Assembly: GCA_030429975.1 (NCBI GenBank)
Contig: JAUIGB010000003.1
Location: 1-54,604 of the forward strand
From: a bacterium
GTDB lineage: Bacteria; Patescibacteriota; Saccharimonadia; Saccharimonadales; Saccharimonadaceae
Reading direction: 5' to 3'
Length of the DNA stretch: 54,604 nt
Shown: piece after piece, positions 37,351-43,208 of the stretch
Layout: every line of letters starts with the position of its first letter
How positions within the stretch are numbered: the stretch's first letter is position 1
Made by a program: the position numbers and the translations under genes
Notes under the pieces: generated by a model
Database searches by the model: none
The model's input: only the letters and a program-made list of their open reading frames with translations
Told to the model about the DNA's origin: nothing

Positions 37351-37617
37351 ATGAGAGAACGTATTCGTAAGACAATCAACGTCGCGGCGCTAGTAGTAAT
37401 AGCCTGGCTGATTGTTGATGCGCTGAACGTTCCCGAAGCATTAATCAATTTCATTGTAATAGGTCAACTGCCAATGACCAAGACTAGCCTACCGCCCTCA
37501 CTAATGTTGGCGATTATGGTCGCGTCATTCTGCGCCGTTGTGTTCGAAGTTGTTTCTAGACGGAATAATACCGTACGAGCTTGGCGCAAAAAACTATTCA
37601 GCACTATCGGCGTCTGA
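37351..37617 (+). CDS. small two-TM membrane protein, 88 aa
   Basis: Two hydrophobic helices are visible: about residues 11-35 (VAALVVIAWLIVDALNVP) and 50-70 (LMLAIMVASFCAVVFEVV), with basic ends. The start at ATG 37351 is fixed by the TTGACT-17-TATAAT promoter whose -10 ends 10 bp before it. The longer frame from 37285 would begin upstream of that promoter. It overlaps the convergent exonuclease gene by 24 bp. No family is recognised. Confidence 0.65.
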   Translation: MRERIRKTINVAALVVIAWLIVDALNVPEALINFIVIGQLPMTKTSLPPSLMLAIMVASFCAVVFEVVSRRNNTVRAWRKKLFSTIGV

Positions 37618-39030
37618 ACTATCAGATGGCGCGATATTTTGTAGCCAAAGCTGTATTTCTTGCATAATATATTGCTGGTGGTCACTCAGCTGCTGTTTGG
37701 AAAGTCGCTCTATCGATTTCATGAACATGGGTAATTGTTTATTTATCCGACCCACGCGCCACTTTTCCCAGCGTGATAATTCATCAGCACCCAAGGTACG
37801 CGGAAAACTTCGCGCTTTGTAGTGTAACAGTAAATCGTCTAGCCGCTCGTCACGAAAATCTGGATGAAAATCCGCGAGTGTCTTTTCGTTACATTCAGCG
37901 ACCTTTTGTACCCGAAGTTTGTCAGCATCATCCAAAAACCCATCGTACAATTGTGACTCTGGGTCGGGTGATTTTTTGTATTCCGGTTTGCCTTCGTATA
38001 ATGTACGTAGATTTTCGGCAAAATGCGGCGCCGATAATAGTATGCTTTTGTGGGATTCGACTATATCGGGTGACATGCTGACGTGCGACCAGCCGTCTCC
38101 TTGTTCTAGGACGCCGAGTGGAGCCACTGCTGGAACGCGATTATACTGCATTTCTTTTACTGGCAATTTAACGAAATCATCGGCCTTGCGCTCTTCCCAT
38201 GTGGCATAAATCTTCTTTGCCAAAGCTTTGCTATCTAGATCAATAAACTGCGTTGGATCATATCGCAAATCATAGACGAGAATATTACCATTTCGACTAC
38301 TGGTTAGCGGAAATGCCACCGTCGTCTTTTGAAACTCCGCGTCGTATCGACCACTGGAATAAACAAATGGTTGTTTGTTATCCAGATTTATCATTTTTTT
38401 GATTTCATTTTTGTCGCGCATTTTCAATAGATAATCGAAAAGCTGAGGTTGTTTGGATTTAATAAGTTTTGCAATATCAATGAGAGCGACTACGTCGCTG
38501 AGTGCGTCGTGGGCATTCTCGTGCGTTATGCCGTTTTCCTTTGACAATAGCTCTAGCCTATTCGTTGGTTTGCCATCGACCACTGGCCACTTTATACCAT
38601 CCGGACGTAGTGCTCGCGTCATGCGAACTACATCCAACAAATCCCAGCGTGAACGCCCGTCTCGCCAGCTCCATTCATATGGATCTCGGAAGTTACGCCA
38701 CAATAGATGACGTATAAACTCGTCGTCAAACCTTACGTTATTGTATCCAACCACAATCGTATCCGGCGTGAATATTTCCTTTAGTAATATATCGGCGAAC
38801 TGTGCCTCTGTATAGCCATCGGCTACCGTTTGCTGTGGCGATATACCCGTTACCATCAGAGCTTCGGGACTCGGCAAGGTGTCATCGTTTAGGGCAACCA
38901 TGACGTTCACCGGATCTCCAATTGGGTTTAGGTCCATGTCAGTACGCTGGCCAGCAAACTGCATTATTCGATCTTCACGACCTGAAAGTCCGCTCGTTTC
39001 TAAGTCATAGAAAAAAAATGTCGTACTCAT
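37594..39030 (-). CDS. sbcB: exodeoxyribonuclease I, 478 aa
   Basis: This is a DEDDh 3'-5' exonuclease for single-stranded DNA. FFFYDLETSGLSGREDRIMQFA holds the first Asp and Glu, VVGYNNVRFDDEFIRH the second Asp, and ENAHDALSDVVALIDIA the His and last Asp. The SH3-like and helical C-terminal regions (LYDGFLDDADKLRVQKV, DELSRWEKWRVGRI) match ExoI of Proteobacteria, and the full length is kept. It acts in recombination and mismatch repair. Its 5' end lies just beyond the terminator of the RNA unit. Confidence 0.95.
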   Translation of the reverse strand: MSTTFFFYDLETSGLSGREDRIMQFAGQRTDMDLNPIGDPVNVMVALNDDTLPSPEALMVTGISPQQTVADGYTEAQFADILLKEIFTPDTIVVGYNNVRFDDEFIRHLLWRNFRDPYEWSWRDGRSRWDLLDVVRMTRALRPDGIKWPVVDGKPTNRLELLSKENGITHENAHDALSDVVALIDIAKLIKSKQPQLFDYLLKMRDKNEIKKMINLDNKQPFVYSSGRYDAEFQKTTVAFPLTSSRNGNILVYDLRYDPTQFIDLDSKALAKKIYATWEERKADDFVKLPVKEMQYNRVPAVAPLGVLEQGDGWSHVSMSPDIVESHKSILLSAPHFAENLRTLYEGKPEYKKSPDPESQLYDGFLDDADKLRVQKVAECNEKTLADFHPDFRDERLDDLLLHYKARSFPRTLGADELSRWEKWRVGRINKQLPMFMKSIERLSKQQLSDHQQYIMQEIQLWLQNIAPSDSSDADSAE

Positions 39031-39061
39031 TTATCCTAGTATATCCCGAATCCGAACAAAC

Positions 39062-39083
39062 AAAAAACCCGCTCGCTGGCGGG
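39062..39083 (-). terminator. intrinsic terminator of the structured RNA unit
   Basis: On the minus strand, CCCGC-CAGCGA-GCGGG is followed directly by TTTTTT (forward A6 at 39062-39067). Confidence 0.9.
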
Positions 39084-39091
39084 AGGGATGA

Positions 39092-39606
39092 AAAAAGCTG
39101 AACGTGGATGAGTGGAGGTGGTGGGGACCAGACGATCCCCACCACCTCACTGTGGCGGCGTGGCCCACTCGGTAGGCTATTGAGTTGTTATGAAGTTGTA
39201 CATTGTTTTGCGCGGGGTGTGTTGGCGTCATCTACCTACGCGACAGGTTGACGACACAAGGTACTCTGCCTTTTTGGGGGTCTACACCAGTGGCCTAGGG
39301 ACTAGGGTCGCGATCAAGAGTTGTCATCCTCAGGGATTCTACAACAGTTGTCGGCGCCAGTAGTTCCAAATGTGCCCAATGACCCAATCTTTTTGTGGCG
39401 GGGAGTCAACACAAAGGGTTGAATAAATCAGCCCAATCAATCAAAGAATAGCAGCGGCATGTTCCGCACACCTTCTCCTTTCACAAATAGCGTATTTAGC
39501 CACATTTTATTTCAGGCCCGCGACGTTCATTGCGGGCCGCTTATCTGGCACGATGATTCATGCGAGATAAGCGACCCGAAAAACTCGGTTACACGTTCAG
39601 CTTTTT
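39092..39606 (-). repeat. 15-bp perfect long-range inverted repeat closing the RNA
   Basis: Forward AAAAAGCTGAACGTG at 39092-39106 is the exact reverse complement of CACGTTCAGCTTTTT at 39592-39606. The 485 nt between them would be enclosed by a 15-bp stem in the transcript. This is far longer than expected by chance at matched ends of one transcription unit. Confidence 0.85.
39111..39151 (-). other. 13-bp perfect GC-rich hairpin in the RNA unit
   Basis: GAGGTGGTGGGGA (39115-39127), loop 39128-39135, TCCCCACCACCTC (39136-39148), extended by AGT/ACT across a bulged G. The 5' hairpin of the same RNA carries ACCACCTCA again (forward 39626-39634), so strand exchange between the two is possible. 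No U-tract follows. Confidence 0.8.
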
Positions 39607-39649
39607 AATGTGAATCAGGAGATATACCACCTCAACTGATTATGCTTCC

Positions 39650-39678
39650 ATTATAACACAGTTAATGATATTTGTCAA
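39650..39678 (-). promoter_or_regulatory. consensus sigma70 promoter of the structured RNA
   Basis: TTGACA (forward 39673-39678) and TATAAT (forward 39650-39655) are separated by 17 bp, a perfect match at both boxes. Transcription should begin near 39643. Confidence 0.9.
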
Positions 39679-39705
39679 CAACTTTTATGTTTTAATTATA
39701 GTAAC

Positions 39706-39726
39706 AAAAAACACCCTTGTGGGGTG
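39706..39726 (-). terminator. intrinsic terminator of the 39794 gene
   Basis: On the minus strand CACCC-CACAA-GGGTG is followed by TTTTTT (forward A6 at 39706-39711). It stands about 15 nt beyond the long hairpin at 39742-39777. Confidence 0.85.
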
Positions 39727-39741
39727 CGAATAAGTTGGGTG

Positions 39742-39777
39742 TGGACCCGGGAACTCGTCGATGAGTTCCCGGGTCCA
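39742..39777 (-). other. 15-bp perfect GC-rich hairpin in the 3' UTR of the 39794 gene
   Basis: TGGACCCGGGAACTC pairs perfectly with GAGTTCCCGGGTCCA around the 6-nt loop GTCGAT. It starts 17 nt after the stop codon and precedes a separate terminator, the same order as in the neighbouring RNA unit. Confidence 0.85.
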
Positions 39778-39793
39778 GCACACCTTCACGCGA

Positions 39794-40408
39794 TCAGGCG
39801 GCGGCCTTCTTGCGCTTGCCCTTCTTGGCCCTGTTCGGGTCGAAGGCACCTTCCGGAACCGGAACGTGCAGGCCGTTGGCCTCGGGCTTCCAGTTGGGAT
39901 CCATGCTCTCGCCGACGAAGGCGAGCGAGGTCGGCTGGCGGCGGGGCTGACGCGGACGTCGAGCCCAACGGTGCCATCCACCTTCGAACCGCCACTGGGG
40001 CAGTTCAGCCTCGGTGTAGCTGAGGATCCACTTCTGGAACACAGAGATGACCTGGTTCTTGATCCGTGCCGAGACCTCGGGCTCCTTGACCGTCGGCTTC
40101 TTGTCGTGCCGCTTGGACAGGAGGTACATGGCGTACTCACCGGCCTGCTCGAAGTCGTCGGCCGTCCACCGCTTGCGCGGGTCCTGACCGAAGGTCTTCA
40201 CCAGATCGATGAACTCCTTGCGCTGGGTCTCGATGTCCTTGCGGCGCTGCTCGTAGCGGGCCTTCTCCGCCATCTGATCGGCGCGGGACTGAGCCTGCGC
40301 GGCCAGGGCGGACTGATCGATTTCGAGGCGCGGCTTGGCGGCCTCGGTGGCGGCGCGCATCTCGTCGGCGATTCCGGCGAACGGGTTCTTGGTTGCCTGC
40401 TTGGACAT
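39794..40408 (-). CDS. GC-rich gene for an uncharacterised basic, helical protein, 204 aa
   Basis: I start at ATG 40408 (MSKQATKNPFAG) because GGAAGG lies 8 nt upstream and the longer frame would begin at the transcription start. The first 90 residues are Ala/Arg/Glu/Gln-rich and probably helical or coiled coil (AAQAQSRADQMAEKARYEQRRKD). The middle has FGQDPRKRWTADDFEQAGEYAMYLLSKR and several Trp. The tail is strongly basic (KKGKRKKAAA), which suggests nucleic acid or ribosome binding. Codons end almost always in G or C, unlike the flanking genes, which points to acquisition. No family is recognised. It has its own consensus promoter and terminator. Confidence 0.72.
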   Translation of the reverse strand: MSKQATKNPFAGIADEMRAATEAAKPRLEIDQSALAAQAQSRADQMAEKARYEQRRKDIETQRKEFIDLVKTFGQDPRKRWTADDFEQAGEYAMYLLSKRHDKKPTVKEPEVSARIKNQVISVFQKWILSYTEAELPQWRFEGGWHRWARRPRQPRRQPTSLAFVGESMDPNWKPEANGLHVPVPEGAFDPNRAKKGKRKKAAA

Positions 40409-40519: not shown

Positions 40520-41812
<1,293 letters not shown>

Positions 41813-43073: not shown

Positions 43074-43208
43074 TCTCCTACCCCCTTTATGCTCGCTGGG
43101 GTGATCGTAGTCTAATACTTAATTCTATAGACACTTTTGCCGTCGGGCCGACGGTGGAATGGCATAAAGTGCTGTCTATATTTTACAAATATCTGCAATA
43201 TGTGTCAA
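43074..43208 (-). promoter_or_regulatory. promoter and riboswitch-like structured leader of the LysM-CHAP gene
   Basis: TTGACA (forward 43203-43208), 17 bp, TAAAAT (forward 43180-43185); transcription should start near 43173. The leader has a hairpin CCGTC-GGCCC-GACGG inside an ACTTT/AAAGT stem. ACCCC can pair with the GGGGT of the ribosome binding site, leaving a 13-nt loop whose GCATAAAG (forward 43085-43092) is the perfect complement of CTTTATGC near the 5' end (forward 43162-43169). That is an 8-bp pseudoknot at the Shine-Dalgarno, and it competes with the first stem. I do not recognise a known riboswitch consensus. Confidence 0.6.

Follow-up and report, generated by a model that had tools for sequence, protein, structure and literature searches.

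The obg-sbcB gap and its transcription unit

In the window (the whole stretch of 54,604 nt that was analysed, contig C20 of a Saccharibacteria genome), the gap between an obg-like GTPase gene and an sbcB-like exonuclease gene holds a predicted RNA that is encoded on the same strand (minus) as both border genes. The features of the gap, in the direction of transcription, are as follows:

40520-41806, minus strand: obg-like GTPase gene, which borders the hotspot on the left (named by reading the sequence, not by family search)
39794-40408, minus strand: neighbouring 204-aa ORF unit in the same gap, an orphan with a GC3 of 0.87
39650-39678, minus strand: sigma-70-type promoter TTGACA-17-TATAAT, matching 12 of 12 consensus positions
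39062-39643, minus strand: predicted transcript of ~580 nt, with an inferred start at about 39643 and its end at the terminator (promoter and terminator scans)
39613-39641, minus strand: P0, 5'-terminal hairpin AAUCAG-UU-GAGG...CUCC-UGAUU (fold)
39592-39606, minus strand: 5' arm of the closing helix P1, AAAAAGCTGAACGTG (covariation, arm-swap control)
39533-39578, minus strand: P2, long hairpin directly after P1 (fold)
39437-39469, minus strand: candidate micro-ORF GTG CGG AAC ATG CCG CTG CTA TTC TTT GAT TGA, behind AAAGGAG
39276-39294, minus strand: 19-nt block GCCACTGGTGTAGACCCCC, which the RNA at this site in a relative (G005) has without any change
39110-39150, minus strand: P3, long GC-rich hairpin directly ahead of the P1 3' arm (fold)
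39092-39106, minus strand: 3' arm of P1, CACGTTCAGCTTTTT (covariation, arm-swap control)
39062-39083, minus strand: intrinsic terminator CCCGCCAGCGAGCGGG-TTTTTT (terminator scan)
37594-39030, minus strand: sbcB-like exonuclease gene, which borders the hotspot on the right (named in the same way as obg)

The unit thus runs in the order promoter, P0, P1 5' arm, P2, a centre of ~365 nt, P3, P1 3' arm and U-tract terminator. The initial annotation had described a TTGACA-17-TATAAT promoter, a 15-bp exact inverted repeat and a U-tract terminator, and all are present: the promoter on the minus strand (39678 to 39650, 12/12 consensus positions), the repeat at 39592-39606 and 39092-39106, and the terminator at 39083-39062. 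P1 is an exact helix of 15 bp that starts 43 nt past the -10 box, and it delimits the best promoter-clamp-terminator unit within the window. The accompanying statement that the unit has no credible ORF is correct for ORFs of normal length, but it passes over an SD-preceded micro-ORF at 39469-39437, which encodes the 10-codon peptide MRNMPLLFFD; this peptide is unconserved and the frame is a candidate only. The terminator ends ~32 nt ahead of sbcB, which has its own TATA-like -10 (TATACT/TATAAT, read in the sequences) directly ahead of the start codon. The neighbouring 204-aa ORF likewise has its own promoter (40505-40477) and its own GC hairpin(s)/terminator (39711-39727), and no homologue of it was found among 244 family genomes or viral contigs.

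Folding of the window RNA

None of 100 shuffles folds as well as the whole RNA (z = -6.4), and this signal stems from P1, P2 and P3. P2 reaches -39 kcal/mol in its folded segment (z about -4.5 to -6.7), and P3 has a z of about -4.6 to -5.0, so that the window copy carries two strong hairpins inside its clamp. The GC hairpin noted initially corresponds to P3, spans 39110-39150 and is borne out (z -5.0). Folding is also strong where two abutting hairpins had been drawn (39515-39538 and 39539-39572), but these overlap and compete: the stronger structure is a single hairpin at ~39533-39578 (z -4.5), and 39515-39538 is an alternative that competes with the 3' side of P2. P0 alone is not significant (z -1.3). 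Once the end elements are removed, the centre folds no better than shuffles (z -0.76), and the smaller nested pairings that had been proposed there are therefore not above chance.

Searches against known RNAs and by sequence

A covariance-model search of the whole window against Rfam (4,227 models) gave no match at gathering score, and positions 38950-39750 gave none even at E<=10, including the ROOL, GOLLD and OLE models; the expectation that no known Rfam family would be hit was thus upheld. When 33 loci, most of them with related units, were compared with Rfam, the only match was lysM-TM7, which lies elsewhere in two of the loci. The unit is neither tmRNA nor RNase P RNA, since the genome's own copies are located elsewhere (G000:C13:12353-12759 and C36:1-136, respectively), in line with the earlier remark that the cores of these RNAs are not visible here.

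Collecting homologues by BLASTN, as had been suggested, was unproductive. Searches of 60 relatives and ~295 family genomes with the whole window RNA returned no homologue; their one match was a block of 19 identical nt in G005. This block falls in the obg-sbcB gap of that genome, and the gap was therefore read by synteny in relatives. A scan with the consensus motif ACATTGACAAGTTGGATA of 393 genomes of the order and of the genome_contigs collection gave mostly chance matches besides the known locus. A covariance model of the 5' leader was set aside: RNAalifold gave no pairs because the P0 sequences misalign, which left a sequence-only model. The class is unreachable by sequence search because its conservation is limited to its ends.

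Related units at the same site

The obg-sbcB gap was read in 71 family genomes, mostly metagenome assemblies, by simple scans and reading, with borderline gaps judged by eye. Approximately 33 of the 71 have one to three discrete units in the gap, each with its own promoter and terminator and all in the same orientation. In about a quarter, obg and sbcB are adjacent (gap of 26-130 nt), and some have unrelated protein genes in the gap. No unit was detected at obg-sbcB in 29 genomes from other families within the order, and the gap there is mostly 8-120 nt. Adjacency of the two genes (8-130 nt in genomes without a unit) is the ancestral state. This pattern marks the unit as a hotspot insertion that has so far been seen in this family alone.

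The frame shared by the relatives consists of promoter, P0, P1, P2, P3 and terminator. The promoters of most units at the locus resemble that of the window copy, and their spacing is usually 17 nt. In most, the P1 5' arm starts 36-54 nt past the -10 box and often reads ACATTGACAAGTTGGATA; the 3' arm lies just ahead of the terminator. Tandem arrangements also occur; for instance, one gap (L114 in G131) contains three units with a promoter each, of which the first and third are clearly clamped.

Compensatory changes in the closing stem were found at all 13 of 13 P1 pairs, each with two-sided changes across 20 units. In the same 20 units, 58 cells were doubly changed, compared to 16.6 in shuffles, and sliding the alignment by one column reduced pairing from 89% to 38%; because complementarity was the criterion for locating the P1 arms, the percentage of paired positions errs on the high side, which the arm-swap and slide controls answer only partly. 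A stem of at least 12 bp forms between a unit's own arms in 25 of 33 units, compared to 6.2% of 1,056 swaps of 3' regions between units, some of which join related units. Strong hairpins inside the clamp are similarly widespread: P2 has z<-2 in 28/33 units (mean z -5.5) and P3 in 24/33 (mean z -4.0). P0 is weakly folded across units (mean z -1.8), with its hairpin shape and place kept in relatives. The end frame is a real RNA structure. Together with the absence of an Rfam match and of any long protein frame conserved among relatives, the covarying P1 supports the initial proposal of an uncharacterised RNA class in this lineage.

Clamped units elsewhere in the genome

Long arms behind promoter-like sites occur at chance rate across 961 kb of the genome, where a reversed control reached 18 nt. 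Arm length alone is therefore no proof, and the comparative evidence carries the case. The general idea of a genome-wide clamp was accordingly dropped, and other clamped units can be claimed only with the full feature set, since arms are no commoner than in the reversed control. The window unit is the sole arm pair of at least 15 nt in these 961 kb that is accompanied by a perfect promoter and strong P2 and P3.

Besides it, the genome has one convincing unit (on contig C23) and two doubtful ones (on C12 and C14). The C23 unit (G000:C23:28287-27414; L049 1529-656, L168 8287-7414) combines a perfect promoter with a clamp of 11 bp (ACAAGCAGACG), a long 5' hairpin and an SD followed by a 197-codon frame with a signal-peptide-like start. 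On C12 (L087 15135-16721), a 386-codon lipoprotein-like ORF with a GC3 of 0.70 lies inside a 17-nt inverted repeat with a nested 15-nt inverted repeat TTAGCGCAAAGTATA/TATACTTTGCGCTAA; arm lengths of this order are within chance reach genome-wide.

The ORFs of clamped units in this genome have a GC3 of 0.69-0.87, compared to a genome mean of 0.47. Strong expression does not account for this: EF-Tu and RpsL have a GC3 of 0.45-0.48, and the codon use of clamped ORFs is therefore unlike that of highly expressed genes. Nor are clamps tied to high-GC3 ORFs in general, for which no enrichment was found. Many small ORFs of this genome have a GC3 of 0.65-0.87 relative to the average of 0.47 (e.g., L164 8340-8838, L163 10856-11279 and L167 19057-19549); several have lipoprotein- or secretion-like starts, and they look acquired from high-GC bacteria.

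Variable middles and micro-ORFs

The middles of the units diverge rapidly. In the three closest pairs (L101/L149, L104/L124 and L148/L154), the first 50-130 nt and the last 70-190 nt align at 74-90% identity, whereas the middles are unalignable and the lengths differ by up to 190 nt. At the same site, some congeners have units that clamp a small ORF, the start of which is often signal-peptide-like (clamps of 16 bp in G006 u2, 10 bp in G001 and 12 bp in G002 u1). A clamped unit in the gap of G017 (L096) has a strong SD followed by the frame of a repeat peptide of 29 aa, MSCIQRGGRIGRGGRIGRGGRVGRGGSEG.

Among units without a long frame, micro-ORFs were counted as frames with an ATG start behind an SD of at least 5 nt. 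The 32 units contain 33 such frames, compared to 6.3+-2.5 in shuffles (maximum 13) and 6 on the antisense strand, an approximately five-fold excess. At least one is present in 23 of the 32 units and none in the other nine, some of which have frames starting with GTG or TTG.

When ATG, GTG and TTG starts are all considered, a C-terminal GFT is common to 8 of about 32 units, from seven genera. The peptides are MVRSGFT, MIHVRGFT, MHTSGFT, MHYSGFT, MLHPEAGFT, MNTSGFT and MYTSGFT, and one unit encodes both MEIWSGFT and MDWPSGFT. In 200 shuffles, any C-terminal tripeptide was common to at most three units, and GFT did not turn up at all. Synonymous variation at the Ser (TCT/TCG/TCA/AGT/AGC), Gly (GGT/GGC/GGG), Phe (TTT/TTC) and stop (TAG/TAA) codons points to selection on the peptide itself, and not on the RNA alone. 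The GFT micropeptide is absent from the window copy and is thus not class-defining; in the other stretches of the window's genome that were examined, only one GFT frame was seen, which lacks an SD. A second, basic type of micro-ORF (MMRKRYI/MRKRYI, MKKRHM, MMKWRHS/MKWRHS and MRRHM) is suggested by the gaps of L132, L135, L138 and L147.

Interpretation and alternatives

The observations are best explained, at about even probability, by a previously undescribed, family-restricted RNA class at the obg-sbcB hotspot, in which an end frame surrounds a hypervariable payload and the transcript acts as an end-shielded carrier mRNA for micropeptides or small secreted proteins. The new class is probably not purely noncoding but a carrier transcript, with protected ends, of micro-ORFs or small peptides. 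By analogy, the clamp frame would shield both RNA ends from nucleases and yield a very stable, abundant transcript. Such a transcript would serve as carrier mRNA for micropeptides of 7-9 aa or, in some genomes, for small secreted proteins. It may be speculated that the payload turns over fast because it faces outward, to the host bacterium or to competitors. In the window, the payload may be the micro-ORF at 39469-39437, a weak candidate, or the RNA itself.

The main rival, which is somewhat unlikely, is that the unit is a large noncoding structured RNA (an RNP scaffold, an RNA-only particle or a trans-acting regulator) in which micro-ORFs are secondary or only attract ribosomes. The strong overall fold and the long covarying P1 would suit such an RNA, as would the units without a recognisable SD-ATG ORF (G003, G005 u2, L100, L114c, L148 and L154), and GOLLD, ROOL and OLE are examples of similarly sized RNAs that assemble into complexes made of RNA alone (PMC12286853). 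However, the middle is unconserved between close relatives and, in the window, is no more structured than shuffles, and neither the excess of SD-ORFs nor the synonymous variation behind GFT would be expected if the RNA were purely noncoding. The purely structural ROOL/GOLLD/OLE-like RNA that was initially envisaged is similarly at odds with conserved ends around a hypervariable centre, SD-ORFs above chance, the GFT micropeptide and units that clamp a secreted-protein ORF.

A second and improbable explanation is that the gap is a hotspot for interchangeable cassettes, in which mobile or recombining promoter-payload-terminator units carry a clamp and hairpins that aid recombination at the DNA level and have no function in RNA. 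Depending on the genome, the gap is empty, contains one to three units or contains unrelated protein genes; ends are kept while middles are replaced, and orphan high-GC3 ORFs appear as payload, all as cassettes would predict. However, reading of the gap sequences revealed no recognisable integrase, transposase, target-site duplication or attC-like repeat, the units are all in one orientation, and the P1 covariation, the fixed distance from the promoter and the location immediately within promoter and terminator are in keeping with a transcript. A unit may, moreover, function as RNA and still exchange its payload.

It is very improbable that the window RNA is the relic of a unit that once coded for a small secreted protein. 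ORF units occupy the same site in four congeners (G001, G002, G006 and G009), some congener units have the order clamp-hairpin-SD-ORF-hairpin-clamp, and the window SD is where it would be expected and precedes a frame of 10 codons. Unlike a relic, however, the window copy has an intact promoter, intact P1, P2 and P3 and an intact terminator, and many genera have units without long frames, so that a short payload is the common state. It is scarcely credible that the unit is an sbcB leader or attenuator, or a 3' element belonging to obg, as the position between the two genes on the same strand might suggest: the unit has its own perfect promoter and terminates ahead of sbcB, sbcB retains its own -10, and many relatives have intact obg and sbcB without a unit.

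The preferred reading of a carrier transcript can be extended, as a long shot, to an epibiont that dedicates a locus to a hyper-protected RNA with clamped ends, whose payload is exchangeable. This RNA would either be a vehicle for micropeptides or secreted peptides or would itself be delivered, nuclease-resistant, to the host bacterium. For the entry of an epibiont's RNA into other cells, one published precedent exists in another lineage, where intron RNA of Candidatus Velamenicoccus archaeovorus was seen in dead archaeal cells (PMC13153191). If this extension were true, the locus would be a new RNA-based interaction module, and the foreign-looking GC3 of the ORF units (0.69-0.87 vs 0.47) would reflect adaptation to the host.

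Comparison with known systems

ROOL, GOLLD and OLE are in the same size class as the window RNA and fold elaborately, and are analogues in size only (PMC12286853). In contrast to these, the window RNA is neither in a phage nor beside a tRNA island, its frame is conserved at the ends only, and micro-ORFs are enriched in its class. The closest functional analogue is RNAIII of Staphylococcus aureus, which has 514 nt, 14 stem-loops, a 5' hairpin for stability and an internal delta-hemolysin ORF (PMC8383071), and thus resembles the window class in approximate length, in its numerous stem-loops, in the hairpin at its 5' end and in having a short ORF inside, which in the window class is a predicted one. 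The two have no sequence relation (no Rfam match), and RNAIII is tied to agr quorum sensing. Additionally, conservation in the class described here is confined to the end frame around a hypervariable middle, and its ORFs, predicted from sequence, are mostly of 5-47 codons.

Within the same phylum, lysM-TM7 RNA (RF03005) is a structured RNA that in G003 and G001 lies at a distance of one gene, ahead of the LysM gene that comes before obg. Unlike the obg-sbcB RNA, to which it has no match, it is a cis-regulatory leader of 138 positions. Its matches in two congeners are at L042 1588-1727 and L043 3397-3564, and the leader of the LysM gene in the window (about 43080-43170) has no match to it. To our knowledge, few RNAs have been described in this phylum of obligate epibionts, to which the present units add a syntenic, covariation-supported RNA class.

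Minigenes and leader-peptide ORFs are preceded by an SD and comprise 5-10 codons, and leader peptides precede a regulated gene on the same mRNA. In contrast, the micro-ORFs described here lie inside a terminated, stand-alone predicted transcript. The class offers a compact case of a conserved 7-9-residue peptide encoded inside a structured RNA.
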